Of a stretch of 30,408 nt of DNA, positions 1-29,487 are shown piece after piece. The position numbers and the translations under genes were made by a program. Origin of the DNA: a virus. The stretch covers positions 1 to 30,408 of IMG/VR virus record IMGVR_UViG_3300045738_001343. One strand, 5' to 3'. The notes beneath the pieces are model-generated. The model made no database searches, was not told where the DNA came from, and saw nothing but the letters and a program-made list of their open reading frames with translations. Numbering within the stretch: position 1 is the first letter of the stretch; every line of letters begins with the position of its first letter.

Positions 1-2923
1 AAACTCCTGGTTCTAATGTTTTATGATTCTCATAAACACTAACTTCAGGTAGAAAAACTGTTGCTGTATTAGTAAATTCAAATGTATGTAATCCTTTAAG
101 AATATGTTCATCTAACAACGTTCCAATTCTTTGACCCATTGAATTTAAAATATAAAGTTTAGTATCTTCTGGTTTATCTAAATAAAACTGAAATGTAGTA
201 TTGTCTATAAATGGATTGGGATAGTTATATGTTAGTGCACTACCATCAGGTTTTCCACCACCAAATGCCCAATACTTATTCCATACCATTACTTTACCAT
301 CTTTTCTATCCATTGATAAATCTCTACCTGCAGGTGAACCAGCGGCGTGTTTACCAACAAATCGTATTGGAGCTTCTGTCCACTCAGTATCAGGAAAATC
401 TGCTTTAAATAATAATTTTAATCCAACAATCTCGTTTTCTATATGATACGTTTCAGGTGCATTACTTGGTGAATAATTAATACCACCAAAAGAAACTCTT
501 TGCCAACCATCTACAACTTCGTGAACATTTACATAAGTCATCCAAGGCCCTGGTAAAACATCTGTTTTCATATCTATAAATGTTAATTCATCTACTTTAA
601 ATTCTACTTCAAATTCAAATCCTGCAATAAGAACTCCCTCTCTTGGTTTAATAGTTAACGGAACTTCAATTTGATTACCTGACTGAACTCTAACTGTTGA
701 ATCGGCTGGTAATGAAAGAGTTACTTCAACTCCATCTACAAAATCACCAAAGTTATTAGCTCCACTTAAAATATTATTAGTATTAGATTCATCATTAGTA
801 TCATTTATTTTTTCAGCATGTCTTGTTGGTGCACTTCCACCTGCCCAACGATAATATGTAGTACCCTCATTATCAATATATCCATCACTAACTGTGCCTG
901 CTTGGGCTTTAGTATAATCTATATTCGCTGAACCGTTAAGTGTTATTTGGTGTCCCTTACCCGTTGTAGCTCTTCCAGTTTTACTGTCATTTACTTCGTA
1001 AACTTTTGTTCCTGTGGCGTTTATATCTCCTGTAAAATAATATCCTACATCTGGCATTAAATAATCAGGATTATCATCGTTGTCAGTTCTGTTTGGTGCC
1101 CAAGAAGAATAACCATTTCCAATTATTAAATGAAGTGTATCCAATCCTGTTTGGTGGTCATCCATTAATGGGTTTATAGTTTCTATATGACCAAATGTTA
1201 ATGCTTTTTGATTAGTAGCTAAAGCTCTTGTTGTGGTTATTGGTGAATACTCTCCATTATTAACTCCAGAAGCTCTATCTCCACCATTATTTGTATTGGC
1301 AGTTGTATTCTCATCCCAATATATTGTATACTCATATTTGTTTAATCTTGTTTGACCATTTACTGTATTATAATATCCATAGTTTAAAGCATTACCACCT
1401 TCTTTAAAAACTTCTATTGAAGACCAATCTTCATGAGACCTACCAGTGTGGTGTGTATAGTTAGAAAATAATCCAGCCGAATAAGACCATAACAGATAAG
1501 TGTCGTTTAGAAAAAATAAATCATCACCGTCAACATCTCCAACTAAATACTCAAGAGCAGTCAATGTATCTATTCGTGTTCCTGGAATATCTCTTGTACC
1601 TGCATTATAGTTGTGATGTTTACCTGATTGAAAATTAAAAGACGCTATAGCATCAGTTACATTTGTAATTTGTTCTCTATGTAAATCAAATTGGTCGTGT
1701 GTTTCTATATCATCGCTATCATCGGGTGGCCAAAACGAAACACGATATCTATTATTTCTTGGTAATTGTATTTGATAATACCCTTTATCATCTGTATAAG
1801 TTGAGTCATAATAAGATATACCCAGAAATCCCTCTTTAGGAAGAACTTGTGCTGAAGTTGTTGATTTCTTATCATACAGAAATGTTGCCGTGTGGTCTCC
1901 AATAACATCATCACTTCCATCTTCATCTGCAGCATTAGCGTCATTTGCTATAACTTCTAAATTATACCAATTAGTTATTCGTGGATTAAAGTTAGCTTCA
2001 TTTCTATCTAATTCAAATTTTACTTTCCAATATGGATATGTGTTTTCTATTGGACCTCGTCTCCAAGCTGGGTTAGCATCAGCATAATCCCATTTTGCAC
2101 CCATACCTCTACCATTACCTTGAATGTATCTGTAGTATCCCTCAACATCAACAAGTTTTGGATGAAGAGTTATATCACCACGAGCACCATCTAAGTTAGT
2201 TGATTCTGTTCCATAGTTACCATCTATAAAAACTTTATAAGCAGTTAAATAATTTCCATTCGTTACATAAGTATACCATCCTACACCACCTTGATATTCA
2301 GTTGCTATTCTAAAAGCACGTGGATTAAAGTTATCTGCTACATCATTCACTTTAAAATGTAATTTTATTAATTCTTTTTGAACACCATTACCCCCACCAA
2401 ATTTGTGTGTGGCTACATTGTGAGATACCATTGTAATTCTTAACCAATCGTATCTACTATCAGATACAGATATTTCATTACCATTACTTGCTATACCATC
2501 AGTATAACCTATATTAGCATAACGAACCACTTCATAAGAATAGTGATGACCACTTTGTGCACTATCGCCCTCTGTCCAACCAGCTATATGTGCACCTTTA
2601 TGTATATAGGTTGAATCGTGAGACCAAGTAAAGATATCATTATCAAATATAATGTCTAAACGAAAAGCACTAACATTTGCACCATTGTCGTCAATTGTAA
2701 CGGCAACTGTCATTACATCATCTCTAAAAGCATCAAAGTTATTGTTTTTGTTTGCTGGCTCAGAAGTAACATCAGCTAAGTATGTTCTTAAACTATGAGT
2801 AACTTGGTCTCTCCACCAATACTTTGGTGTCTTATACTCTCTGCTCTGCATAAGTCTAATGATTGGTGTCTGAGTATATACGAAACTCATCACCAACATC
2901 AAGCCCAATAAAAATTTACGCAA
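1..2923 (-). CDS. Large secreted protein with dockerin-like, cohesin-like and T9SS sorting domains (3' end cut by window edge)
   Basis: The minus frame is open from a TTG at 2923-2921 to the window edge: 974 residues with no stop. The start is chosen because GAGGAG lies 7 bases upstream and the first residues (RKFLLGLMLVMSFVYTQ) form a lipoprotein-free signal peptide; no ATG has a comparable ribosome site. Residues about 457-480 (GDVDGDDLFFLND) resemble a dockerin calcium loop. Residues about 730-880 read as a cohesin-like beta domain. Residues from about 898 (NYPNPFIDNTTFQF, later ILNSMGQRIGTL) match the type A C-terminal sorting domain of the type IX (Por) secretion system; only the last 20 or so residues appear to be missing. 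The T9SS family exports proteins across the outer membrane in Bacteroidota and relatives. Its function here is unknown: surface attachment or polymer binding is inference. It lies just downstream of phage tip genes but has its own promoter. It could be phage cargo or host flank. Confidence 0.8.
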   Translation of the reverse strand, partial: MRKFLLGLMLVMSFVYTQTPIIRLMQSREYKTPKYWWRDQVTHSLRTYLADVTSEPANKNNNFDAFRDDVMTVAVTIDDNGANVSAFRLDIIFDNDIFTWSHDSTYIHKGAHIAGWTEGDSAQSGHHYSYEVVRYANIGYTDGIASNGNEISVSDSRYDWLRITMVSHNVATHKFGGGNGVQKELIKLHFKVNDVADNFNPRAFRIATEYQGGVGWYTYVTNGNYLTAYKVFIDGNYGTESTNLDGARGDITLHPKLVDVEGYYRYIQGNGRGMGAKWDYADANPAWRRGPIENTYPYWKVKFELDRNEANFNPRITNWYNLEVIANDANAADEDGSDDVIGDHTATFLYDKKSTTSAQVLPKEGFLGISYYDSTYTDDKGYYQIQLPRNNRYRVSFWPPDDSDDIETHDQFDLHREQITNVTDAIASFNFQSGKHHNYNAGTRDIPGTRIDTLTALEYLVGDVDGDDLFFLNDTYLLWSYSAGLFSNYTHHTGRSHEDWSSIEVFKEGGNALNYGYYNTVNGQTRLNKYEYTIYWDENTTANTNNGGDRASGVNNGEYSPITTTRALATNQKALTFGHIETINPLMDDHQTGLDTLHLIIGNGYSSWAPNRTDNDDNPDYLMPDVGYYFTGDINATGTKVYEVNDSKTGRATTGKGHQITLNGSANIDYTKAQAGTVSDGYIDNEGTTYYRWAGGSAPTRHAEKINDTNDESNTNNILSGANNFGDFVDGVEVTLSLPADSTVRVQSGNQIEVPLTIKPREGVLIAGFEFEVEFKVDELTFIDMKTDVLPGPWMTYVNVHEVVDGWQRVSFGGINYSPSNAPETYHIENEIVGLKLLFKADFPDTEWTEAPIRFVGKHAAGSPAGRDLSMDRKDGKVMVWNKYWAFGGGKPDGSALTYNYPNPFIDNTTFQFYLDKPEDTKLYILNSMGQRIGTLLDEHILKGLHTFEFTNTATVFLPEVSVYENHKTLEPGV

Positions 2924-2990
2924 GGTAAATCTCCTCGTTATTTTTTTAAGTGAAGTAACCTTTTAGAAAAAAAGGTATAGACTTTATTAT

Positions 2991-3019
2991 ATTATAAATA
3001 AATATTATGTTTCTTACAA
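2991..3019 (-). promoter_or_regulatory. sigma70-like promoter for the T9SS-domain gene
   Basis: On the minus strand TTGTAA (3019-3014) and a perfect TATAAT (2996-2991) are 17 bases apart. The start codon of the secreted-protein gene lies about 68 bases beyond the -10 box. The leader also contains a 7-bp inverted repeat (2958-2976, ACCTTTT/AAAAGGT). Two TATAAATA octamers lie on the opposite strand here (2993-3000 and 3021-3028) and point away from the gene. Confidence 0.5.
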
Positions 3020-3037
3020 CTATAAATATATTAATCC

Positions 3038-4138
3038 TTAATTATCAAATCTTATCGTAAAGGAAATATCATATTCTTTTGGTTTTTTTATTGGGCGGGA
3101 TAGTTTAGCCACCGCTAATAACTCTTTATTATCATCATATAACCCTATACTTGTTATATATGGATTAAAAGCAGAATGAGTTACAAAATTTGAATATACT
3201 CCTGCTGGTCTATATACTAAACTTGTATCATATTCTTCTTGTGTTCCAACTTCATTATAAACTGATCCTGTCAATTGTGTATGTATTCCTTCCATAAAAA
3301 ATCCAGATAAATCGCTTCCAAGTAATTGTGAACCACTTCTACCCGGAGTTGCACTTATATTATCTGTACCATTATATTCGTATTCTTGTATATTGCACAA
3401 AAATTCATATTCTCTAATAGTTTTAGTTCCTTGAAATTCTAACTCATAACCATCTGTACCTTCCAATTTTGCCACATTACCATATTTTGACCCAGTATCA
3501 GTTATAACAATAAAACCTTGATCATAAAATACGTTTCCTACAGAATCACCTACCACAACATTAGACCCTGATAATGATGATGACCTTCTTGCAAAACTTG
3601 ATGAATAAACAGAATCATATAAATGTCCTCTTTCATCATCTACTAAAGTAAGAGTTTCATCTGTCAAAGAATTATCAATAAGTTGTACTGTCCCAGGTTT
3701 TATTTCTTCTCCGAAAAATTTTCTAGGAATATTAATAACTCTTAAACTATTATGTATTCTATTTAAAAATGACCCAGATGAATCTCTAGGCCAAGGATCT
3801 TGATTAAAACTAAATTGTGGTTGGGGGGATAGTCCCTTAGGATTATTTTGTTGTTCAAATTTATAATATAAATGATTAATTGAATTATAAACAGGAAGAT
3901 TATAAAAAGTACCTACGCTATACCAAGTATCCTTGTCTTTTCCAAGAGACCTTGATAACTCATTAAAAGTACCTAAAGATTTTGACTGAGCAGACGCAGT
4001 ACTATAATTAAAATAGCTCCCACTAGTGCCTTCAAGAATAAAAACTCCACTTCCACTATCCGCGTCAGTGAATTCGTATTGTTTAAAAACTTTAAACGGG
4101 GTGATTGTTGCGTTGCCTTCTCCAATCGGCTTAAACAT
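3038..4138 (-). CDS. Phage tail tip / structural protein, paralogue of the next gene
   Basis: 366 residues. The C-terminal 45 residues (YITSIGLYDDNKELLAVAKL, ending in a beta-strand IRFDN) are clearly homologous to the end of the neighbour at 4152-5213 (YITTIGLYNANSELLAVAKL). An internal stretch also matches (GTVQLIDNS against GTATLRLIDDS). The rest is rich in Ser, Gly, Tyr and Asn without predicted membrane segments, as in beta-rich virion proteins. From memory, proteins with this GLY-(D/N)-ELLAVAKLS ending occur among structural genes of marine T4-like phages; the exact virion position is not known to me. It starts 13 bases after the upstream gene's stop, in the same operon. A role in host adhesion is inference from its position at the end of the tail module. 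It is the last gene before the secreted-protein gene. Confidence 0.7.
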   Translation of the reverse strand: MFKPIGEGNATITPFKVFKQYEFTDADSGSGVFILEGTSGSYFNYSTASAQSKSLGTFNELSRSLGKDKDTWYSVGTFYNLPVYNSINHLYYKFEQQNNPKGLSPQPQFSFNQDPWPRDSSGSFLNRIHNSLRVINIPRKFFGEEIKPGTVQLIDNSLTDETLTLVDDERGHLYDSVYSSSFARRSSSLSGSNVVVGDSVGNVFYDQGFIVITDTGSKYGNVAKLEGTDGYELEFQGTKTIREYEFLCNIQEYEYNGTDNISATPGRSGSQLLGSDLSGFFMEGIHTQLTGSVYNEVGTQEEYDTSLVYRPAGVYSNFVTHSAFNPYITSIGLYDDNKELLAVAKLSRPIKKPKEYDISFTIRFDN

Positions 4139-4151
4139 AAGCTTACCTCAC

Positions 4152-5213
4152 TTAAAAATCAAGTCTTACTTTTATTACTGCTTCTCTCGCCGGAGTTTTT
4201 AAGAACGGTTTACTAAGTTTAGCTACCGCTAACAATTCACTATTAGCATTATACAATCCTATCGTAGTAATATATGTACGAGGATCGGTTACATAAGTTG
4301 GATTTGTTAATTCACCACTTCCAGTATAATAAGTTGGGTTTTGACTAAAATTATATCGTCTATTATTTACTCTGCAGAAATAATGAGTTGATTTAATATC
4401 TTCTTCACGTCTTGCTTGAAAATATCCACCCGTAGTATTAATTGCATTATACAATTTACTAGAATTATTATCATCCGCATTAGTACTTAATCCAGTAGCA
4501 AGTGAAATACCATTCTGAGTTCCAGATTGATTATCATCTAATTTACCAGAGTCAAGCATAAAAACACCTAAAAACGGATAAAATCTTCCATAGTACATTT
4601 TGGTTGTACCAGATGAATACTTATATGAAGCTGTTCCGCCACTTATACTTCCTGAAACAATATTAAAATATGTAGTTCCCTTAGCAACACTAGAATCAGA
4701 AGTAGCGCCACTATCATCAATTAATCTTAAAGTTGCAGTTCCTAATCTTATTTCCCAATTACCTGGGTCAACCTTTTCTCTCATCCGAGCTCTTGATACT
4801 GAGATAAAATATGATGAAGATGATTCTAATTCAGCTCCACTTGCACCATACTTAAAAAATGTTTGAGTTGGTGACACAATTACATTTTTAAATTGTGAAT
4901 ATATAGCCTGGGAAGCATTTGTACCGTCCGTAGCATTTTTTGATCCACTACCAGCATGATGTCCATAAGTCACACTAAATTGTACTTCTGATGTAGATGA
5001 TGATGATGCTTCTTGATGTACATCAGTATAATAATCTCCACTAGATGCACTCTGCGCTGACGATGAAAAGAATCCAGCAGTTGCAGATCCTTGAGTTAAT
5101 GTAGTTCCTCCGCTCGACCATATACCACTTGAAACTGTAGTAACTCTGTTCGCCACTATATCTTCGGCTGTATCAAAAAGTTGAAATACGCCTGATGCGT
5201 CTCCTATTGGCAT
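4152..5213 (-). CDS. Phage tail tip / structural protein, paralogue of 3038-4138
   Basis: 353 residues, strongly Ser/Gly/Thr-rich, with the same C-terminal module as its downstream neighbour (GLYNANSELLAVAKLSKPF, then a final beta-strand VRLDF). The middle, residues about 145-175, contains WEIRLGTATLRLIDDSG, which aligns with the corresponding part of the paralogue. The N-terminal 130 residues differ completely, which suggests that this part carries the variable function while the C-terminus carries attachment or trimerisation. The start is preceded by AGGAG at good spacing. A TATAAATA box overlaps that site, so late transcription could restart here. Virion location and receptor are unknown; the structural assignment rests on context and paralogy. 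Confidence 0.7.
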   Translation of the reverse strand: MPIGDASGVFQLFDTAEDIVANRVTTVSSGIWSSGGTTLTQGSATAGFFSSSAQSASSGDYYTDVHQEASSSSTSEVQFSVTYGHHAGSGSKNATDGTNASQAIYSQFKNVIVSPTQTFFKYGASGAELESSSSYFISVSRARMREKVDPGNWEIRLGTATLRLIDDSGATSDSSVAKGTTYFNIVSGSISGGTASYKYSSGTTKMYYGRFYPFLGVFMLDSGKLDDNQSGTQNGISLATGLSTNADDNNSSKLYNAINTTGGYFQARREEDIKSTHYFCRVNNRRYNFSQNPTYYTGSGELTNPTYVTDPRTYITTIGLYNANSELLAVAKLSKPFLKTPAREAVIKVRLDF

Positions 5214-5225
5214 TTTATGTTCTCC

Positions 5226-5233
5226 TATTTATA
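5226..5233 (-). promoter_or_regulatory. TATAAATA late-promoter-like box
   Basis: The minus strand reads TATAAATAGGAGAACAT directly before the start codon at 5213. TATAAATA is the -10 element used by T4 gp55 late sigma factor, and a gp55-like gene lies at 21055-21774. A transcript from here would have a leader of only a few bases, and the octamer is common by chance in DNA this AT-rich, so confidence is low. Confidence 0.3.
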
Positions 5234-5263
5234 TTAAATATTATTTTCATTAAAAATTTTCAT

Positions 5264-5548
5264 TTACTCTGGATCCAGATCGTCCTTACCATTTTTACCG
5301 TTGCCGTTGCCATTACCAGAACTTTGTTGATATACTACTATATCTGCAGTAGCAGTATCAGATCCATCTTCATTTGTTACAGTCAATTCTACTGTATAGG
5401 TTCCTGGAGTTTGATAAGTATGAGTTGGATTTATAGATTCCGCGTCTATTCCATCTCCAAATTTCCAACTATATATTAATGCTTCTCCTAGTGAAGCATC
5501 CGTAAATACTACAGTAGCTGGTGCTGTTAATGTTTGTTGTCCTGCCAT
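5264..5548 (-). CDS. PKD (Ig-like) domain protein
   Basis: 94 residues. Residues 8-74 form a PKD fold: TAPATVVFTDASLG, then the hallmark YSWKFGDG, then PTHTYQTPGTYTVELTVTN. The tail is a Gly/Asn linker (NGNGNGKNGK) and an acidic end. PKD and other Ig-like domains are common accessory decorations on phage virions, where they bind carbohydrates or the cell surface weakly. The gene begins 2 bases after the stop of the upstream frame, with GAGGA 9 bases ahead of the ATG. The first beta-strand of the PKD domain seems to be missing and is instead found at the end of the upstream protein (PTAGFTYRT), which suggests a frameshift product or a broken gene. Confidence 0.75.
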   Translation of the reverse strand: MAGQQTLTAPATVVFTDASLGEALIYSWKFGDGIDAESINPTHTYQTPGTYTVELTVTNEDGSDTATADIVVYQQSSGNGNGNGKNGKDDLDPE

Positions 5549-5550
5549 TC

Positions 5551-5844
5551 TTAACCATCCTCAGTTCTGTAGGTAAAACCTGCGGTTGGAGGTTTTGGTG
5601 AAGTATCATCTGCGGGTGGGGGAGACGGTGCGGTTATGGTACCATCAACATTAAATAAATGTCCATTTAAAATACGTTTTGGTGTCCCTGCCTTAATAGT
5701 AATCTTAGTTGAAAATTCCTTTCCAGATAGTTCTCCTTTACCAGAAATAGTTACTTGTTTATCTGGAAATGTACCTGTAGTTTTACCAACAACTGATTTA
5801 GCTACCAATATAAATTTTTTGCCTGTTCTTGTCTTATATGGCAT
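5551..5844 (-). CDS. Small structural protein ending in the start of a PKD domain
   Basis: 97 residues. The first 72 residues are Lys/Gly/Thr-rich beta-type sequence of unknown family. They are followed by a proline-rich linker (APSPPPADDTSPKPP) and PTAGFTYRTEDG, which looks exactly like the opening strand of a PKD domain. The stop comes there, and the remainder of the PKD domain lies in the -1 frame immediately downstream. This gene may therefore yield a short form and, by frameshifting, a PKD-extended form. It lies in the structural operon, 16 bases after the preceding stop, with a good AGGAG site (aggagagtaata before the ATG). Function unknown. Confidence 0.65.
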   Translation of the reverse strand: MPYKTRTGKKFILVAKSVVGKTTGTFPDKQVTISGKGELSGKEFSTKITIKAGTPKRILNGHLFNVDGTITAPSPPPADDTSPKPPTAGFTYRTEDG

Positions 5845-5860
5845 TTATTACTCTCCTACC

Positions 5861-6340
5861 TTATCCAATCTCTTCTACTGTTATTACTTCACCTTCTTTA
5901 AATACATCAATATAAACATCGTCTGGTAAAGTTAAAGTATATTCTTCATCTTCTCCAAAATTTTCTGTAACTGGTGATATCACAAAATAATCGAAAGCTC
6001 CTACTGTTTCTGTAGCTGTTGGAACTCCAGTTATAAGAATAGTATCTACTGTATCATCTAGTTTATCTTTCAACGGAAATTTCATTGCTCCATCTTTTCC
6101 ATCTTCAGCTACCGCTACACTTCTAGTCATAACTTCCAATAAAGGCATATTCAAAATAGCATTATCATAATAATCAGGTCCACTAGTATGTGTAACATCA
6201 AAAAGATTATAATCTATACCATCATCTGCTAATGCAAATTTGCTTATATTAAGATTACCAGCAGTTGCTAACTGTTGTCTACCCAATTCTGTCAAAACTG
6301 CGTCTACAAATACTGTTACGCTTTTATCCAAAAATGCCAT
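5861..6340 (-). CDS. Phage structural protein, tandem paralogue of 6340-7047
   Basis: 159 residues. The N-terminal 70 residues (MAFLDKSVTVFVDAVLTELG, then KFALADDGIDYNLFDVTH) match the N-terminus of the upstream gene (FALADDEIDYTLWDTAH). The C-terminal half is different and short. I recall this FALADD-IDY N-terminal module from hypothetical structural proteins of marine T4-like phages. The start overlaps the upstream stop by one base (TAATG), so the two are translationally coupled. It probably forms part of the distal baseplate or fibre network; that is inference. Confidence 0.7.
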   Translation of the reverse strand: MAFLDKSVTVFVDAVLTELGRQQLATAGNLNISKFALADDGIDYNLFDVTHTSGPDYYDNAILNMPLLEVMTRSVAVAEDGKDGAMKFPLKDKLDDTVDTILITGVPTATETVGAFDYFVISPVTENFGEDEEYTLTLPDDVYIDVFKEGEVITVEEIG

Positions 6341-7047
6341 TATTCATTTGCCTTATAATTAACTCTAATTGTCAAAGCTGCAGTTGCACCAGACATCAAT
6401 CCAGTAACTATGCAAGTTGTTTTTGAAAGATCTTGTGTACTTGTAATTCTCTTAGCTTTAATTTTAATAGTATTATTACCTGGGGGCGATATTAATGTCT
6501 GTGAAGCTCTAAATCTTAAAGATTGTTCTGTAGGTTGAGAAAATCTACCAGCGGTTGTTGGATTATCATCTAAATATAGATAAGCTATATTTGTATTAAG
6601 TAATGTATAAGAATATCCTTCAGGTGCAGAATTTGAATGTAAATTAAGTGTAGTACATTGTATAGAATCTTCATCCCCAGCATTACTTACATTTTTCCAA
6701 CTTAAATCTAAAATTCCACTATTAGTATTTACTCTATTATTAAAAGTACCCCCAATAGTAGCCATCTTCATTCCAGCGCTTTTATCTAAATGATCGGTAC
6801 TTCTTAAAAGTTTATATCGCATTACACTAGTTTCATTTGGAACTGGTTCTAATAATGGTAAATTTTCTATAACGGTTCCATAATAATCCGAACCGGATGG
6901 GTGTGCAGTATCCCATAATGTATAATCTATTTCATCATCTGCTAAAGCAAAATGTGATACATTAAACTGTCCTTGAGCTAGCTTTTCTCTACCTTTATTG
7001 GTAAGAATAGCCTTCAAGACCTGAGTTGTTTTATTTAAATACGCCAT
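6340..7047 (-). CDS. Phage structural protein with FALADD module
   Basis: 235 residues. The N-terminal module (MAYLNKTTQVLKAILTNKGR, SHFALADDEIDYTLWD, then IENLPLLEPVPNE) is shared with the downstream paralogue. The C-terminal 130 residues are a beta-rich, Asn/Thr-rich domain absent from the paralogue, ending in LTIRVNYKANE. No signal peptide or membrane segment. The module is the part common to both copies, so it probably provides assembly contacts, while the C-terminal domain is specific to this one. It follows the giant tail gene after a 76-base gap and starts the block of small tip genes. Exact virion role unknown. Confidence 0.7.
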   Translation of the reverse strand: MAYLNKTTQVLKAILTNKGREKLAQGQFNVSHFALADDEIDYTLWDTAHPSGSDYYGTVIENLPLLEPVPNETSVMRYKLLRSTDHLDKSAGMKMATIGGTFNNRVNTNSGILDLSWKNVSNAGDEDSIQCTTLNLHSNSAPEGYSYTLLNTNIAYLYLDDNPTTAGRFSQPTEQSLRFRASQTLISPPGNNTIKIKAKRITSTQDLSKTTCIVTGLMSGATAALTIRVNYKANE

Positions 7048-7123
7048 TTTTCAATTCCTTCGATTTGTAATATATGATCACAGACAACCTTTGTTATCTA
7101 TAAATATATATAAATTAAGTTTA

Positions 7124-13334: not shown

Positions 13335-14821
13335 TATCTACTCACTTTGAATTTAAAATCACCACCATAATAATTTACTGTTTTACTTACACCACTTCCA
13401 CTGACAACTTTATATTCTATTTGATAAAATCTTTCAGCCTGTAATCCGTTCATCCAAAAATTAAAATAATTTCCTGAACTATCGCACGAAATATATGAAC
13501 CAGATCCATATGGTACCATTACATCTTCTGTAAATGCATCCTTTATTTGATAATAACAAGAAGCAGTTGGTAAATATTTAACAGTTACACTATCAGAAAC
13601 AGTTGAGGTTGAATATGTTTTGGTAGGATATCTTTCTCTACCAACAAGTCTGAATTTTACTTTTGAATTTTCTTTATAATCAGGTCTTAATCCTTTCATA
13701 TAAACGACTAAATCTTCTAAATCCGAGGAAACTAATGGTGATAAAGAACCAGAATTAAAAGAATAATCATTCCAAACTACTTCTAATTTTGGTTGATAGA
13801 CTGTATCTGTTTCTCTACTAAAAAATGCAAAATGACCATATTTTGTAGTATTTCCTTCTTCGACATTATCATCCGCATTACCAACACTTCCACTTCTTTT
13901 AATCATAAACCCTTCATTTGGTACTCTTCCATCTATCCAAGTCCACATAACATCAGTTACATCCATTCTCATATCAGTAGTTTCCCAAGCAAACGATTGA
14001 GACGCTATATATCCACTTTCACTCCAAGTTCCACCAGAAAAATTAGTTTTTGTCATACCAGCAGTATCGGAGTCTGTAAGAGTGACGCTTGTATTTCCAA
14101 CAGTACCAGCAGTAGCTTGAGTAGCCGTAACAACTGCACTATCCACCGTAGCGGTAAATCTAGTTCCCGCTGGCCCCGATGAAGTATTAATAACATTCAT
14201 TAGGTTAGTTGCGGTTTGGTTATTTGAAGTTGTGGATTCCCATGTACCATTAACAGAACTTTGGTCACCATTGGTAAAGTCATAGTTAGTACCGTCTGCA
14301 GCAATCAAATTCACTTTATCACCAGCATTGAGTTCGGTGTAATCTGTAATGGTAATTGTTGCAGTTGCACTCTCTATCCCACTTCCACTATACCAGGTTC
14401 CACCAGTATTATTACTACCACTTATCCATTGAGTACCATCTACTTTTCCTTGTTTGTATCTCCAACTAACACCTTCTTCATCTGGTGGATTATCATAAAA
14501 TTTACCTTCTCCAGCCGTCCAAGATTGACTTACTGGATATCCATATAAAGATTGACTAGTCGTTAAATTAGATGAATTAGCATCATATAAATTTAAATAA
14601 AATTTTGTATCCGATCCTGATGTAATTAATCCAGATGATACTGACTGTGAAATATAAGTTAAATCAAATTTAATTAACGCACGAGAAACATTTATTATTG
14701 ATGCATTATTATTAGTATCTTTTCTTATTTCTAATATTTCATCCAATCCAGTATTTTGTGATTGAGTAACTGGTCCCTCATATAATGTTGCGTCTGCTGA
14801 AGCGTATTCAAAATAATGCAT
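13334..14821 (-). CDS. DNRLRE-type phage tail protein with an inserted beta domain
   Basis: 495 residues. Residues 1-140 and 265-345 together form a DNRLRE-like domain as seen in phage and surface proteins (DATLYEGPVTQSQNTGLDEI, SRALIKFDLT, then MRMDVTDVMWTWIDG, NEGFMIKRSGS, FSRETDTVYQPKLEVVW). Residues about 143-264 are an extra Thr/Ala/Ser-rich domain (TATITITDYTELNAGDKVNL, QATAGTVGNTSVTLT) of a kind that recurs in phage tail proteins. The insert is bounded on both sides by GGTW and by a near-identical DNA repeat. The C-terminal 150 residues are a separate beta domain (FRLVGRERYPTKTYS, ending in GGDFKFKVSR). It is coupled to the gp6-like gene by a TAATG overlap and probably decorates the baseplate or a fibre. 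Confidence 0.72.
   Translation of the reverse strand: MHYFEYASADATLYEGPVTQSQNTGLDEILEIRKDTNNNASIINVSRALIKFDLTYISQSVSSGLITSGSDTKFYLNLYDANSSNLTTSQSLYGYPVSQSWTAGEGKFYDNPPDEEGVSWRYKQGKVDGTQWISGSNNTGGTWYSGSGIESATATITITDYTELNAGDKVNLIAADGTNYDFTNGDQSSVNGTWESTTSNNQTATNLMNVINTSSGPAGTRFTATVDSAVVTATQATAGTVGNTSVTLTDSDTAGMTKTNFSGGTWSESGYIASQSFAWETTDMRMDVTDVMWTWIDGRVPNEGFMIKRSGSVGNADDNVEEGNTTKYGHFAFFSRETDTVYQPKLEVVWNDYSFNSGSLSPLVSSDLEDLVVYMKGLRPDYKENSKVKFRLVGRERYPTKTYSTSTVSDSVTVKYLPTASCYYQIKDAFTEDVMVPYGSGSYISCDSSGNYFNFWMNGLQAERFYQIEYKVVSGSGVSKTVNYYGGDFKFKVSR
14024..14406 (-). repeat. Direct repeat bounding the inserted domain of the DNRLRE protein
   Basis: On the minus strand CTGGTGGAACCTGG (14406-14393) and CTGGTGGAACTTGG (14037-14024) are 13/14 identical, and the similarity extends weakly a few codons further (AGTGGAAGTGG against AGTGAAAGTGG). 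They are 369 bases (123 codons) apart, in frame, and both encode TGGTW or SGGTW. This looks like the scar of a domain gained by duplication or recombination. Confidence 0.7.
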
Positions 14822-16731
14822 TAGACGTCTCCTACTACTCTACCGATAATATCTGTATCTGGAAATTTTAATTCAAAAATTGCTGGGTCTCTAGATGGAT
14901 AAACTACACCATTTTTAATCACCATTGGGTCTCCTAAATCATATACATTTCCTGAATATCCCTTTGCAGTATCATATCTATTTTCTATTACTATATTTGT
15001 TCCTAGTGGATTAGAATCACTTGGAGTTTCTACTCCAACCACACCTTCAACTTCTATTAACTTTGCTACCACCTCAGCAATTACAAGTGGTTGATTAATT
15101 TGCCACAAGTCAATATTAAAATAATTTTTCACTTCATTAATTGCATTCAATAAAACTTCATTTTTATTATAACCTTTTTTTGTTAATATATCAAATTTAA
15201 TAGCAATATTAACTATATAGGCATCCTTTATATTATAAGCATCTGTTACCATTCTAAATCTATCTAAATATACTTTAAGATTCTTTTTAGTAACATCATT
15301 TAATTTAGTTAATTTACGATTATTATTATACCCTAGTAAATATAAATTTAATCCAAATTGATTTTTAGTAAAAGTTAATTCTTCTCCAGGTTGTGTAGTT
15401 ATTTGTTCATCTTGCACTACATATGCTTTAGCTATATTACCATATCTTTCAGGTAACGCATAAATTCTAACAAGTATATCATCTCTAGTTACCGACCTAC
15501 TTTGAGCCTGAAAAAATGCCATAGCATTTTGTTTAATTTCTTCTACTGATTCTACATCCATTCCTCCAGATGATGGTTCATCATTAACAACGTTCAATGA
15601 ATTATTAACTCTCGTTATTTTAGTACCATCTAAAGTTGAAGGCAAACTTGTAACAATTTTAGAAGCAAAAGAATTAATTTCTCCTGATCTAACATTATGT
15701 TTAGAACCACCATCAAATGCATAAGTAATTTCTAATGTAGTATTAGACGGAGCTTCACCATATGCTCTTGTATTTGTAAAATTATTAGGATCAAAAGCAA
15801 TTCCTAATTTAGATGGACTTCCTGGTAAATTTGAACCTACATTATCGGGATTTGGAATTAATTCTTCGTCAGGAGTCACTAAAGTCCCTGCCCCAAACCG
15901 CATTTCAGTTTTTTTATCTGGTCTTACATATGTTCTAAATCTTTTTGATGTTTTCAATCTTTTTAAAATATAAGGATTTGTAGCATCAAACTGAACTAAT
16001 GAAGAATCATTTGATTCTATATTTTGAAATTCTGTAAAAACCATATCTTGTGCTAAAAATGGAACCTCATACCAAGTATTTCCATCACCATCAGTTACAG
16101 AAATAATATCTGTTACATTTTCTTCTGATAAAGTTATTCTATCATATTTAATTGGGCTTCCAAATGTAAATGTCTCTTTTTTACTATACCCGCTTACAAC
16201 AGTTATTTTTTTATGTAATCTATAATATTCAATAGTTCCATCAGTAGATGTTTGAGAAATTTCTTTTACAACATCTCCCTGATCTACTTTAAAATTACAA
16301 TCAGTTAACAATCTATATTCAACTCCAAAATTAGGAGCAAATAGTCTAGTGGTTGATTTAATATTTAAAGCATAATCATAATCTGGTTGTGTTGGATCAT
16401 CAGTCATAGCTGGAACTTCCTGTGAAAAAGTTACTGTAGCCATAGATGGTGATATCAATCTAGGAGTATATCCCATAAATTGTGCTATATTATATACTTG
16501 ATTTTTTTCCTCAGCATAAGGTAACAAACTTTCTTTAAACATAGCATCAATATAATAACCCAAAACATCACCAACATATGCTACAGATTCTAAAAACATC
16601 GTACCAGGAGCAGATTCATTGAAATCTTTATAAGTATTTGGGAAGTAAGTTTTTGCAAATTCTATAAGGTTACTTCTTAACCCTGCAAAATCACGTCCTA
16701 AATAGGATATATCTTTTTTATAAGTTGGCAT
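14821..16731 (-). CDS. 6: gp6-like baseplate wedge protein (baseplate J family)
   Basis: 636 residues, close to T4 gp6 (about 660). The N-terminus (KKDISYLGRDFAGLRSNLIE, then ESAPGTMFLESVAYVGDVLG at 39-58) is the conserved start of gp6 in marine T4-like phages. The middle contains the baseplate-J-type pattern (NAMAFFQAQSRSVTRDDILV, followed by LPERYGNIAKAYVV). In T4, gp6 dimers form the iris-like ring around the baseplate hub and control sheath contraction. It comes directly after the gp25-like gene, 10 bases from its stop, with GGAG upstream of the ATG, and couples by TAATG to the DNRLRE gene. The identification is firm at family level. Confidence 0.88.
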   Translation of the reverse strand: MPTYKKDISYLGRDFAGLRSNLIEFAKTYFPNTYKDFNESAPGTMFLESVAYVGDVLGYYIDAMFKESLLPYAEEKNQVYNIAQFMGYTPRLISPSMATVTFSQEVPAMTDDPTQPDYDYALNIKSTTRLFAPNFGVEYRLLTDCNFKVDQGDVVKEISQTSTDGTIEYYRLHKKITVVSGYSKKETFTFGSPIKYDRITLSEENVTDIISVTDGDGNTWYEVPFLAQDMVFTEFQNIESNDSSLVQFDATNPYILKRLKTSKRFRTYVRPDKKTEMRFGAGTLVTPDEELIPNPDNVGSNLPGSPSKLGIAFDPNNFTNTRAYGEAPSNTTLEITYAFDGGSKHNVRSGEINSFASKIVTSLPSTLDGTKITRVNNSLNVVNDEPSSGGMDVESVEEIKQNAMAFFQAQSRSVTRDDILVRIYALPERYGNIAKAYVVQDEQITTQPGEELTFTKNQFGLNLYLLGYNNNRKLTKLNDVTKKNLKVYLDRFRMVTDAYNIKDAYIVNIAIKFDILTKKGYNKNEVLLNAINEVKNYFNIDLWQINQPLVIAEVVAKLIEVEGVVGVETPSDSNPLGTNIVIENRYDTAKGYSGNVYDLGDPMVIKNGVVYPSRDPAIFELKFPDTDIIGRVVGDV

Positions 16732-16741
16732 ATTTTAACTC

Positions 16742-17134
16742 CTAAGTATATACAATAATAGTAGTATTTGTTCTAGTTGGATCATTTTTGTGTGCATAAG
16801 TAAGTGCAACATTTAATCTTCTTCTAGTATTATCTATTTTAGTATCAATATTTACAATTCTAAGATAGGGAAGCCATTTATCTATTGCATCATTTATTAC
16901 TTCATCTACTTTATCATTTATAGAATCATCCATTTGCTCAAATAAAATAGATGCAAGTGCACATCCAAAAGTAGGATGAGCCACTCTTTCACCCCACTTA
17001 GTTTTAAGTAAGTTTTGAATATTAAATTCGGCTGCTTCCATAGTAGATGCTGTGGGTGTCCAATTTTCATCAACTGGTAATCTTATTCCTATACTAACAT
17101 CTGGATCTTGATCATATTCTCTATTAGACGCCAT
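16742..17134 (-). CDS. 25: gp25-like baseplate wedge protein
   Basis: 130 residues against 132 in T4 gp25. It shows the GPW/gp25 family pattern: IQNLLKTKWGERVAHPTFGC at about 39-58, with the conserved GER (48-50) and PTFG (54-57), and a C-terminal beta-alpha part (INDAIDKWLPYLRIVNIDTK, RLNVALTYAH). gp25 sits at the junction of baseplate wedge and the first tail-sheath ring, and homologues (TssE) occur in type VI secretion and other contractile systems. Its ATG lies inside the last codons of the preceding gene (11-base overlap). The adjacent gp6-like gene follows in the usual contractile-tail order. Confidence 0.9.
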   Translation of the reverse strand: MASNREYDQDPDVSIGIRLPVDENWTPTASTMEAAEFNIQNLLKTKWGERVAHPTFGCALASILFEQMDDSINDKVDEVINDAIDKWLPYLRIVNIDTKIDNTRRRLNVALTYAHKNDPTRTNTTIIVYT

Positions 17135-20508: not shown

Positions 20509-20548
20509 TATAAATATAACTGACTTAAAAACCTCTTGTATATAAATA
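20509..20548 (+). promoter_or_regulatory. Two TATAAATA late-promoter-like boxes
   Basis: TATAAATA occurs at 20509-20516 and again at 20541-20548 on the plus strand, both inside the non-coding region upstream of the plus-strand gene at 20637 and with similar context (TTATAAATATAA; TATATAAATATATAA). This is the T4 late-promoter -10 octamer, and a gp55-like sigma factor gene is 500 bases away. The rest of 20451-20636 shows no gene. The divergent baseplate operon may start from a TATAAAAG sequence on the minus strand near 20496-20503, which is weaker evidence. Confidence 0.5.
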
Positions 20549-20636
20549 TATAAGAATTTCGGAAATTTAAGTACTTAAATAGTTATTTTAGAGGGAAAAA
20601 ATACCCTTATGATACATAACTAACGGGAGAATAACC

Positions 20637-22824: not shown

Positions 22825-23694
22825 TTAACTCCAAAACCCATGTTCTATATTTTTAGTTTTTTCTTTTTTATTTTCTAATTGATAATTCATAATCAATAAC
22901 TCTGTTCCTTTATTTTGACTTTTGCCTTTTTGTGCAGAAGCCGGTTTTACAAAATCTTTTAATTCCCACTCATATTCATCTTCAGGAAACCAATCATGTA
23001 ATTGATCAAAATCATAATATGACAAACTAAATCTACCTTTTATATTTTTTAATATGTAAGCTAATCTTTTATGATCATCTGATTTAAAATCATGTAACGA
23101 ATAATAATTTTCTGTTTTCCAATATGGTGGATCTACATAAAAATATGTTTTAGGGCTATCATATTTTTTGATAACTTCTTCACAATCCATATTTTCAACA
23201 TTAGTTATTTTTTTTAATTTTTCTATAACCACAGGATTTTTTAATCTTCTTCTAAATGCATCAAATTTAGAACTATACTTTCCTTTTAAATCTATAAACT
23301 TTCCTTTTTCTGGATTTAACCCTGAAAAGATTTGTGTAACTATATAAGCATATTTCATCCCGTAATCATAATTTGGGATTTCTATATCTTTAATATTTTT
23401 ATTTTCAAATACTTCTGTTTTAAACTGATAGAATAACTCAGAATCTTGTGCAACAATTTCATCCATTGACTTTAAAAATTCTTGTGGATTTCTGCAACAC
23501 GATATTAAATTTGTCATATATCTATTAAAATCATTATATATAACATTTTTTAAAATGGGTTTTTTGTGTACTTCTCCTTTGACATATACCCAAAATGCCC
23601 CACCAAAAACTTCTACATATGTTTCTATATCATTGGGAATATAACTCCCAATCCATTTAGCCATACGGTTTTTTCCACCGATATAACTGATCAT
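22825..23694 (-). CDS. dam: DNA adenine N6-methyltransferase (D12/Dam class)
   Basis: 289 residues. The D12-class signatures are present: the N-terminal MISYIGGKNRM loop that binds S-adenosylmethionine, VFGGAF at 29-34 (motif I) and the catalytic DPPY at about 187-190. The product transfers a methyl group to adenine N6. T4 Dam methylates GATC; the target here cannot be predicted. No restriction enzyme gene is adjacent, so it is an orphan methylase, and protection of phage DNA from host restriction or marking for packaging is the usual explanation. The last 40 residues are a Lys/Gln-rich tail (SAQKGKSQNKGTE). Same operon as the HD protein. Confidence 0.9.
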   Translation of the reverse strand: MISYIGGKNRMAKWIGSYIPNDIETYVEVFGGAFWVYVKGEVHKKPILKNVIYNDFNRYMTNLISCCRNPQEFLKSMDEIVAQDSELFYQFKTEVFENKNIKDIEIPNYDYGMKYAYIVTQIFSGLNPEKGKFIDLKGKYSSKFDAFRRRLKNPVVIEKLKKITNVENMDCEEVIKKYDSPKTYFYVDPPYWKTENYYSLHDFKSDDHKRLAYILKNIKGRFSLSYYDFDQLHDWFPEDEYEWELKDFVKPASAQKGKSQNKGTELLIMNYQLENKKEKTKNIEHGFWS

Positions 23695-25140: not shown

Positions 25141-26337
25141 TTAACTATTAAGTAAATGAGGTTTTCCTTCAATATTTCCTGCTCCAGTAACCTCTATTAA
25201 TTCTACCTTAGAATGAAACTCAGAAATATTGTTAGCACCAACATAAGAGAAAGAACTACGAAGTCCCTCTTGTATATCTTGGATAATTCTTTTGACCTTT
25301 CCTTTATATGGAATAACTTTGTGGTTTCCTTCAACATTTTTATTATCACCCCTATCATGTTTTGAATCTAACGAGGCAGACCCTCTATACTTTTTATATA
25401 ATTGTTCATTTGGCCACTCACCTATTTTTTCAATCGTGCCTGGAGTTTCCTTTGTACCAGATAAAAGGGAGCCCAACATAATCGTATCAGCCCCACAAGC
25501 AAGTCCTTTACACACATCACCAACAGTACGCACCCCACCATCAGCAATAATAGGACAACCATAGGTATCAGCAACGGCCACGCAATCAATAAGAGCAGTA
25601 ACTTGAGGGATTCCCACACCTGTTCTAATGCGCGTTTCACATAACGATCCGTTTCCAATTCCGACTCTAATCGCATCCGCTCCTTTTTCGCATAAGTATT
25701 CACACGATTCTGCTGTTGCAACTGAGCCAGCAATAACTTCGACTGATGATAATCTGGTCTTGATTTTTTCAATTGCTTCTCCTACTAATTTATGGTGACC
25801 GTGTGCTACATCTATAACTATAACGTTACATCCATTGCTCACTAATTCTTCTGCTCTCTCTAAATAATCACTCTTAACTCCTACTGCTGCACATAATGGT
25901 CTTTTACTCCACCTCTTATTCGAGTCCAATCTTTCTTTAGTCATATCAAGATAATCTTGTATATCTGAACCATCATCATCATCTATATAACCTACATATC
26001 CATTTATCTTAACATATTGGTCATATGCTTCAGCTAATGTTTGTGGTGAATCTTTATCTATTTTAAAATAACTTTCAAACTCTTTATGTAAATTTTTCAT
26101 CATACGAGATTGTTCTTCAATAGTATTAAATCTATGTATAACTCCAACACCGCCCCATTCCATCATTTCATATGCCATCCCATATTCAGTTATAGTATCC
26201 ATAGGTGATGAAACAATTGGAATATTTAATTTTGTCTTTTTAGTGAAATTAGTTTCTAAAACAATTTCAGAACGGGAACCTAATTCCGAATATTTTGGAA
26301 TGATATTTACATCATCATAAGTTAACGCTTTTTTCAT
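25141..26337 (-). CDS. IMP dehydrogenase / GMP reductase family enzyme without CBS domains
   Basis: 398 residues. The (beta/alpha)8 barrel signatures are present: LTYDDVNIIPKYSELGSR, the loop GIGNGSLCETRIRTGVGIPQ with catalytic Cys233, IIADGGVRTVGD and MLGSLLSGTKETPG, then EGLRSSFSYVGA. IMPDH oxidises IMP to XMP (to GMP); GMP reductase converts GMP to IMP. The ADGGVR motif favours IMPDH, RTGVGIPQ resembles GMP reductase, and the IMPDH Arg-Tyr flap dyad is not evident (KHDRGDNKN). Between 85 and 147 a 60-residue acidic insert replaces the 120-residue Bateman module, so allosteric control by purine nucleotides is probably lost. The ATG overlaps the preceding stop (ATGA). Purine supply for phage replication is the likely role. 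Confidence 0.85.
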   Translation of the reverse strand: MKKALTYDDVNIIPKYSELGSRSEIVLETNFTKKTKLNIPIVSSPMDTITEYGMAYEMMEWGGVGVIHRFNTIEEQSRMMKNLHKEFESYFKIDKDSPQTLAEAYDQYVKINGYVGYIDDDDGSDIQDYLDMTKERLDSNKRWSKRPLCAAVGVKSDYLERAEELVSNGCNVIVIDVAHGHHKLVGEAIEKIKTRLSSVEVIAGSVATAESCEYLCEKGADAIRVGIGNGSLCETRIRTGVGIPQVTALIDCVAVADTYGCPIIADGGVRTVGDVCKGLACGADTIMLGSLLSGTKETPGTIEKIGEWPNEQLYKKYRGSASLDSKHDRGDNKNVEGNHKVIPYKGKVKRIIQDIQEGLRSSFSYVGANNISEFHSKVELIEVTGAGNIEGKPHLLNS

Positions 26338-26612
26338 TTATTTATTTTATCCAGTTCTTCTGTAACTTCTTGTAAAAGAAAAGGACATACACCACATTTT
26401 GAATCATATTCCCAACATTCCCAATATGTTCGCGGAATGTCAATACAATCATCATCAAAATCCTCACATATATGATCTGGTACTGATTTGTAATCTATAG
26501 ATGTTCTTGTCTTACCTTTTACCCAACCATAACTTGACATAAATCCTTTCATAACCGATAAATTATTAGTATCTATTTTCAAGTTATCGGGCCACCAATA
26601 TAGATTTCCCAT
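26334..26612 (-). CDS. Small Cys-rich protein, hypothetical
   Basis: 92 residues with Cys at 49, 56, 66, 73 and 76 (HICEDFDDDC; WECWEYDSKCGVCPF), which could bind a metal, plus an aromatic-rich N-terminus (MGNLYWWPDN). It overlaps the end of the deformylase gene by 34 bases and the start of the IMPDH-like gene by 4 (ATGA), so it is made as part of this operon. No family recognised. The CGVC pair near the C-terminus is reminiscent of a zinc or iron-sulfur site. Confidence 0.65.
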   Translation of the reverse strand: MGNLYWWPDNLKIDTNNLSVMKGFMSSYGWVKGKTRTSIDYKSVPDHICEDFDDDCIDIPRTYWECWEYDSKCGVCPFLLQEVTEELDKINK

Positions 26613-27235
26613 TTACCACTATCTATAAGTGGTTTAGCTTTTTTGTATTTCAAATCTTTTGTTTCTTTACCATCGGTAATCATAACAATTTCATTTCTTC
26701 CCCACTTCTGTGATACTCTACGTGGTTTTAGTTTATGTTCTCTATCCATTATTGTAACTCCATTTAAATGATCTATTTCGTGTTGGACACAAATAGATTC
26801 TATTAATCTTAATTCATTATCTTTTTTTATATTTTGTTCTTGTTCCCAACTACCTTTACCTTCAGTTGAATTTTCTACTCCACTAAAATACCAATCTGAT
26901 TCTTCTTGTTCAGTATGTATAACTATATTCTTAAATCTTTTAGTATCAACTCCCTTACCTTTATATGATAAGCAACCTTCATAATATATTATCTCATCCC
27001 ATTGTTCTTTAATAACAGGATTAATTAGAATAATGGGCTCCCTAACATTAACCACAGCAACAGCGGCGTCAATACCCACTTGGTTAGCTGCAAGTCCAAT
27101 TCCATCTTTCCTTTCAGTAAGGATAGTGAATAATTCTTCTGCAATTTTAAGTCCTTCATCTACTGAAACCTTTCTCAGTTTTTTATTGATAACTGGGTTA
27201 TCTTCTGTTAAACAATTTATTACTTTTCTTTTCAT
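26579..27235 (-). CDS. def: Peptide deformylase with long C-terminal extension
   Basis: 218 residues against about 150-170 in typical phage and bacterial enzymes. All three metal motifs are present: GIGLAANQVG (45-54), EGCLS (86-90, metal Cys88) and QHEIDH (151-156, His152, Glu153, His156). The enzyme removes the formyl group from nascent N-terminal Met. Residues 108-142 are an insert (SDWYFSGVENSTEGKGS) and residues 172-218 an extra domain (KWGRNEIVMITDGKETKD, ending in YIGGPIT). Phage PDFs in cyanophages are thought to keep host photosystem proteins working; a phage of a non-photosynthetic host would use it for rapid translation of its own proteins. Coupled to the 26-codon gene by TAATG. 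Confidence 0.92.
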   Translation of the reverse strand: MKRKVINCLTEDNPVINKKLRKVSVDEGLKIAEELFTILTERKDGIGLAANQVGIDAAVAVVNVREPIILINPVIKEQWDEIIYYEGCLSYKGKGVDTKRFKNIVIHTEQEESDWYFSGVENSTEGKGSWEQEQNIKKDNELRLIESICVQHEIDHLNGVTIMDREHKLKPRRVSQKWGRNEIVMITDGKETKDLKYKKAKPLIDSGKWEIYIGGPIT

Positions 27236-29404: not shown

Positions 29405-29487
29405 GCTTTATTTTATTTATTTTCACTAATAAATATTCTTATATTTGTCATACAAATTTGTGAATAAATGAATTTTGTCCATAACCT

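Follow-up and report, generated by a model that had tools for sequence, protein, structure and literature searches.

A gene for a secreted, cohesin-containing protein with a type IX secretion system (T9SS) sorting domain lies at one end of IMG/VR virus record IMGVR_UViG_3300045738_001343, the 30,408-base stretch analysed here and called the window; we refer to this protein as the cargo. On balance, we favour the view that a T4-like marine phage has the T9SS of its host display the cargo on the cell surface, aided by a phage PorV-like protein, perhaps to mask or remodel that surface. The evidence carrying this view is the location of the cargo in phage DNA, its conservation, its signal peptide, cohesin fold and sorting domain, a PorV-family neighbour and a conserved gene cassette, all read from sequence. 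The initial annotation had placed such a protein beside phage tail genes and left two explanations, a phage gene whose product is exported by the host or a joint between phage and host DNA. Because the window is the complete IMG/VR record, the contig could not be extended leftwards, and the DNA beyond the cargo was judged through relatives.

The open reading frame described at the start of the window is real and fills its span with 974 amino acids; alignment with complete relatives indicates that about 20 C-terminal residues are lost at the contig end. Signal peptides were called by a heuristic and by inspection, not by SignalP. The one claimed for the cargo is clear (MRKFLLGLMLVMSFVYT, followed after the cleavage site by QTPIIR), and Gln stands at position +1 in every cargo of the family with an intact N-terminus (50 of 54 by pattern and three by eye, the remaining one being truncated). 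A 13-member alignment revealed a conserved layout consisting of the signal peptide, a beta-rich N-terminal region, a GDVDGDDxFxLND loop, a cohesin module and a C-terminal domain (CTD) that starts with YNYPNPF and ends with YIFVLQTxxxxKANKFTVVK.

The NYPNPF-type sorting domain reported earlier is present, though truncated in the window. TIGR04183, the T9SS type A sorting domain family, was matched at E <= 0.1 by 12 of the 13 aligned members, the thirteenth ending before the domain, and the complete relative L012 scored 23.4 bits against a cut-off of 23. When the C-terminal 264 residues were modelled alone (pLDDT 74.7), residues 164-264 of the model matched the CTD of Porphyromonas gingivalis PorU (6za2, residues 1055-1157; Z 9.0, rmsd 2.6 over 90 residues), a middling score that was weighed jointly with the TIGR04183 profile. 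PorU is itself a T9SS substrate, and the fold match therefore supports a genuine T9SS sorting domain in the cargo. With a Sec signal peptide, a TIGR04183 domain at family level and the modelled Ig-like CTD fold of T9SS type A cargo, the protein is predicted to be secreted.

The cohesin-like domain, weak in the window copy, was borne out by the relatives and by modelling. PF00963 was matched at E <= 0.1 by all 13 aligned members (best 6.9e-6), with L012 at the cut-off of 24.1. The full-length AlphaFold model of the cargo was poor (mean pLDDT 39.8) and usable for the cohesin region only, and a search with the low-confidence model of the N-terminal 500 residues assigned no fold to them. The cohesin region matched type I cohesins with Z 14.4; residues 1-153 of the separate C-terminal model matched cohesin 1g1k with Z 16.0 and rmsd 2.2. 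Overall, the fold matches extended over approximately 136-139 residues at rmsd 2.2-2.5. By profile, at family level, and by predicted fold the module is a cohesin, and dockerin binding is putative. The dockerin-like assignment fared less well. The GDVDGDDxFxLND loop is kept in 52 of 54 distinct cargo proteins and a second, partial loop reads TGDINATG; the Pfam dockerin profile matched neither the window copy nor any member searched. One conserved and one partial loop do not make a proven dockerin pair, and the identification as a dockerin was dropped, leaving a single calcium-loop-like motif as its support.

Adjacency to tail and baseplate genes was confirmed, both in the window and in its relatives. 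A scan of viral contigs with the cargo protein found 17 loci of 46-81% identity; of the 89 matches from a profile scan, 80 were retained. In more than 80 IMG/VR contigs, relatives hold the same position, after the tail genes. Contig G025 (53.7 kb; 53,682 bases), whose cargo is 67% identical, is colinear with the window: a TonB-dependent receptor (TBDR) comes first, then peptide deformylase, baseplate wedge proteins and tail proteins, and lastly the cargo. Past this point, G025 encodes a PorV-family protein, more proteins of envelope type, an SbcC-like nuclease and a large protein of fibre type. In an 83-kb relative, G005, phage genes likewise lie beyond the cargo, and the contig carries a T4-type portal (PF07230, 6e-76) and a T4-type terminase, neither of which is on the window contig. 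The gp6-like wedge protein of the window is 42% identical to that of Microcystis phage Mel-JY01 and 36% identical to that of Flavobacterium phage immuto. From the wedge proteins in the window and the portal and terminase in G005, the phage is classed as a T4-like myophage. Since the cargo in G025 is followed by a conserved cassette and then by recombination and fibre genes of a phage, the first of the two explanations, a phage gene exported by the host, is strongly favoured on gene content. Judged through relatives, no host genes adjoin the left end of the window, and matches to the T9SS family were found.

In relatives, the gene that follows the cargo encodes a protein that matches the PorV/PorQ family. 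Of the distinct, complete cargo genes with 900 or more bases of downstream sequence, 48 of 48 have it as the next gene, separated mostly by 6-11 or by approximately 70-106 bases, and it was never seen without the cargo. The product, of about 290 amino acids, matched NF033709 with E 5e-23 in L012; matches were obtained in 13 of the 25 records searched, with E between 1e-16 and 2e-27 in all relatives long enough to include the gene. A profile match to PorV as solved in the SprA complex (6h3i chain F) had E 1.5e-6, and the phage proteins formed one clade apart from the sampled cellular ones (100/100 support). In known T9SSs, PorV shuttles substrates from the translocon, while PorQ belongs to the attachment complex. 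That the phage encodes a PorV-like protein next to a substrate of its own suggests that this protein is the dedicated partner of the cargo. Beyond it, in fixed order, come genes for a 126-amino-acid membrane/coiled-coil protein, a small secreted protein, a lipoprotein (212-216 amino acids), a 328-amino-acid outer-membrane-type protein, a 172-amino-acid secreted protein and a membrane protein of about 240 amino acids; the order cargo, PorV, lipoprotein, 328, 172 was found in 29 distinct loci. The lipoprotein is a remote paralogue of the 172-amino-acid protein. By eye, the 216-amino-acid form had been suspected to be CsgG, an identity rejected when no Pfam CsgG match was found and hhalign to E. 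coli CsgG gave a probability of 6.6, covering the signal peptide only.

Among 50,697 annotated phages, tblastn gave no match to the cargo, the PorV-like protein or the 328-amino-acid protein. The only annotated matches to the cassette lipoprotein came from Flavobacterium phage vB_FspM_immuto (28.9%, E 4e-23; NC_055915, Immutovirus), where a homologous cassette spans gp013-gp019 (L156:10527-16409). It opens with gp013, a secreted C-type lectin, followed by gp014 and by gp015, which contains a cohesin and a T9SS sorting domain scoring 44.8-46.5 bits, well over the cut-off. gp015 aligned with the cohesin and sorting domains of the cargo over 210 columns (probability 95, E 2e-8); gp017 is a homologue of the lipoprotein, gp018 of the N-terminus of the 328-amino-acid protein (hhalign E 3e-6) and gp019 of the 172-amino-acid protein (E 1e-11). 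The T9SS-tagged cohesin protein gp015 had previously gone unremarked. Immuto thus resembles the marine phages in its cassette and its related baseplate protein, and differs in having a smaller cargo of its own, flanked by separate lectin and dockerin-loop-like proteins, and no PorV-family gene, for which its genome was searched; its Flavobacterium host presumably supplies PorV.

Microcystis phage Mel-JY01, which has the closest annotated baseplate protein and a colinear tail region, served as a control. There, the tail-fibre genes are followed directly by GIY-YIG, primase-like and SbcC-like genes, with cargo, PorV and cassette absent, and the phage gave no TIGR04183 or PorV match. Its recorded host is a cyanobacterium. 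Set beside immuto and the marine relatives, which are linked to T9SS hosts, this comparison suggests that the cassette follows T9SS hosts.

Two copies of a promoter-like motif, xATATTTAT, precede the cargo. Across four contigs, 32 of 48 matches in coding direction were intergenic, though intergenic DNA makes up 5% of the sequence, as against 1 of 23 on the opposite strand (Fisher p 4e-7). The motif is probably a promoter of this phage group. Besides the cargo and others, it precedes tail, capsid-region and fibre genes, and its presence before both cargo and structural genes suggests joint expression. The reverse complement of xATATTTAT resembles the T4 late promoter, TATAAATA; TATAAATA itself, in gene orientation, showed no enrichment.

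Several observations bear on the host. Gln at +1 is found not only in the cargo but in most other signal peptides of the cassette, and this Q-rule has been reported to be exclusive to Bacteroidetes, with use by P. gingivalis phages also cited there (PMC10653852). Two phage contigs (L099 / G030, C68 and C3) were binned into a Flavobacteriales metagenome-assembled genome (MAG; NAT55): on one lies the cargo cassette, and on the other a TonB receptor, 73% identical, adjoins clamp-loader-like genes. SprA is present in this MAG and was found in none of 15 phage records, so the host would supply the translocon. Apart from the phage contig itself, the cargo was absent from 52 genomes of the MAG's family, a search set that did not include Marinimicrobia; the best cellular match of the TBDR, in a sample of the MAG's phylum, was 52%. 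The Q-rule and the co-binned, SprA-bearing MAG together point to a T9SS-bearing Bacteroidota host, a likely but unproven assignment.

In the process we favour, the cargo (approximately 950-1000 residues) would be made from the phage-type promoter common to the structural genes and exported by host Sec, with the signal peptide cut before the glutamine. The SprA translocon of the host T9SS would then move it over the outer membrane by way of its type A sorting domain, with the PorV/PorQ-family barrel encoded by the next gene acting as shuttle or attachment partner. Late in infection the cargo would stand on the surface of the infected cell, where its cohesin and calcium-loop region would probably help to form a protein layer or attach to one. 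The likeliest benefit would be a masked or rebuilt surface that keeps competing phages, or newly made progeny, from adsorbing to a doomed cell. We infer secretion itself, the pairing of PorV with cargo, timing, host and purpose. A more specific proposal, that the phage brings its own adapted PorV-like shuttle for one surface protein and reprograms the T9SS so that a phage layer based on cohesin covers the infected cell, is put forward tentatively, as a possibility for which we would not claim even chances. Were it true, type IX secretion would have a phage-encoded component, and virocell surfaces would be remodelled by a new route.

Several points weigh against this interpretation. The window copy alone is below the cut-off for both domains, scoring 16.2 bits against 24.1 for PF00963 and, because its sorting domain is truncated, 16.6 bits (hmmscan) or 20.4 bits (genome search) against 23 for TIGR04183. 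The gene downstream of the cargo is off the contig, so that PorV is placed there from relatives. The phage PorV is also divergent: the NF033709 family cut-off of 90 bits was passed by only 4 of 25 records, and scores against the equivalogs NF033710 and NF033711 were approximately 39-54 bits, with cut-offs of 250 and 220. No scanned protein came near these equivalog cut-offs, and identification as a PorV or PorQ orthologue was rejected; with scores also mostly under the family cut-off, membership goes no further than 'PorV-like'. Immuto has a cargo without PorV, and a phage PorV is therefore not universally needed. The link to a Flavobacteriales host is drawn from co-binning and the Q-rule, and the host is not proven. 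Secretion and surface display are predicted from the genes, and masking is a guess.

It is also possible, if unlikely, that the same export route serves another purpose, with cargo and cassette forming a surface adhesin or scaffold by which particles, nutrients or fresh host cells are caught (sibling capture), or which helps uptake while infection proceeds. The cohesin fold suggests scaffold assembly, the immuto cassette includes the secreted lectin gp013, the phage carries a TBDR as well, and uptake and capture roles have been proposed for the csgGF genes of pelagimyophages (PMC7029224). On the other hand, neither a carbohydrate-binding nor an enzyme domain turned up in the long cargo, and the csgGF phage Melnitz showed no sibling capture (PMC9004378).

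The position of the cargo directly after tail-fibre-like genes, and a promoter-like motif common to both, would be expected if the cargo were a virion part, such as a tail-fibre accessory, with domains that serve particle assembly and a PorV-like neighbour that is an unrelated outer-membrane porin. This is improbable given the Q-rule signal peptide in every cargo with an intact N-terminus, the unfailing PorV-family neighbour and the absence of cargo and cassette from the colinear Microcystis phage; secretion would, moreover, remove the protein from the cytoplasm, where T4-like virions assemble. To a similarly low degree we credit the idea that the phage PorV-like protein replaces or jams host PorV, redirecting or stopping the host T9SS (for example, gliding or receptor adhesins), with the cargo as its favoured substrate. 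A divergent, single phage clade always paired with one substrate fits this idea, which requires competition with host PorV and is speculative. A junction with host DNA at the contig end, through mis-assembly or an integrated phage, with the T9SS gene being that of the host, has envelope-type genes at both contig ends as its sole point in favour and is contradicted by dozens of independent contigs with the cargo in the same place and phage genes on both sides, by the lack of a cellular homologue in the 52 genomes, and by TBDRs in phage contigs of up to 216 kb, leaving it a very slim chance.

Table 1. Positions of the features discussed, in window coordinates.
Feature	Position	Strand	Basis or remarks
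T9SS cargo gene	2..2923	minus	974 codons, TTG start, no stop before contig end
T9SS type A C-terminal sorting domain (YNYPNPF...), truncated	2..229	minus	TIGR04183; PorU CTD fold match
Cohesin-fold module	269..733	minus	PF00963 in 13/13 members; Z 14.4-16.0 to type I cohesins
EF-hand-like loop GDVDGDD..LND, dockerin-like, single copy	1478..1540	minus	alignment
Cargo Sec signal peptide	2873..2923	minus	TTG start, Gln at +1 (Bacteroidetes 'Q-rule'); sequence
Ribosome-binding site AGGAG of cargo gene	2931..2935	minus	sequence
Promoter-like motif xATATTTAT, copy 1 upstream of cargo	2998..3006	minus	
Promoter-like motif xATATTTAT, copy 2 upstream of cargo	3022..3030	minus	
Further xATATTTAT sites	7100-7108, 20510-20550, 29429-29437		
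Tail-fibre-like and small genes directly upstream of cargo	3038..7047	minus	relatives compared
Fibre-like genes colinear in relatives	3038-4138, 4152-5213, 5861-6340, 6340-7047	minus	
PKD-domain protein	5264-5548		PKD match 1e-19
Large tail protein, 1863 aa	7124..12715	minus	conserved in relatives
Baseplate wedge protein, gp6-like	14821..16731	minus	PHROG baseplate wedge 1e-21
Baseplate wedge protein, gp25-like	16742..17134	minus	PHROG baseplate wedge
Dam-type DNA adenine methyltransferase	22825-23694		PHROG 1e-42
IMP dehydrogenase / GMP reductase-like gene	25141-26337		NCBIfam 6e-92, PHROG 1e-98
Phage peptide deformylase	26579-27235		PHROG 1e-24
TBDR, C-terminal third, other contig end	29578..30408	minus	PF00593 3e-10

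Positions of the features are collected in Table 1. With the cargo at one end and the TBDR at the other, both contig ends carry envelope-type genes. Relatives of the TBDR were found in at least 85 viral stretches (63-99% identical, in contigs of up to 216 kb), which makes phage-borne TonB receptors look like a common feature of marine phages. Complete copies, of approximately 900-980 amino acids, have a signal peptide and carboxypeptidase-regulatory-like and plug domains; the version in G025 has 905 amino acids. The TBDR was not found in seven long cargo-bearing contigs, so receptor and cargo are not always linked. Elsewhere in the window, the peptide deformylase is conserved in G025, the IMP dehydrogenase / GMP reductase-like gene did not turn up in the sequences of G025, G011 and G005 that were compared, the small protein among the tail genes consists almost entirely of its PKD domain and had no homologue in three relatives compared, and a Dam-type methyltransferase is present. 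In G005 (L103-L106), approximately 20 genes at about 39200-61700 of the reverse complement resemble glycosyltransferase, sugar-epimerase and SGNH-hydrolase types by N-terminal sequence; this putative sugar-gene block suggests further surface modification.

Taken together, a T9SS cargo is a fixed part of a widespread, abundant group of uncultivated marine T4-like phages, each time with a PorV-family gene and an envelope cassette. The homologous cassette in a culturable Flavobacterium phage makes it testable whether lytic phages use, or even re-equip, the host T9SS to alter the cell surface. Among known systems, the csgGF pelagimyophages and Melnitz are likewise T4-like marine phages with an outer-membrane secretion cassette of uncertain purpose (PMC7029224, PMC9004378). 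They differ in that theirs is a curli (type VIII) system rather than a T9SS, and the 216-amino-acid lipoprotein here has no detectable homology to E. coli CsgG. Cellular PorV/PorQ (P. gingivalis, Flavobacterium johnsoniae; 6h3i) resembles the phage protein in the profile matches given above, to the family and to solved PorV, and the phage gene adjoins a T9SS substrate; the phage protein, in contrast, is phage-encoded, of about 290 amino acids, and a divergent single clade under the equivalog cut-offs.

The initial annotation had regarded T9SS domains as unexpected in a phage. That part has to be withdrawn, since phage-borne T9SS cargo had already been reported in Cryophage (PMC7468147) and in crAss-BACON phages (PMC6949934). 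The paired PorV-like gene appears to be the new element: phage-borne cargo was known before, and the open-licence literature searched yielded no description of a PorV-like T9SS component in a phage. In the parts of the source consulted, the crAss-BACON gut lineages share T9SS sorting domains in phage open reading frames, and differ in their BACON repeats and gut setting, with neither a PorV nor a cohesin cassette described in those parts (PMC6949934). Cryophage, a phage of Bacteroidetes with phage-encoded T9SS type A cargo (Bellas et al., 2020; PMC7468147), is like the marine phages in encoding proteins with type A sorting domains. It has, however, a circular 76-kb genome, and its cargo, of enzyme type (endoglucanase, GH39, PA14), differs from variant to variant (PMC7468147), whereas the marine phages are T4-like and combine one conserved cohesin-type cargo with a paired PorV-family gene and an envelope cassette.

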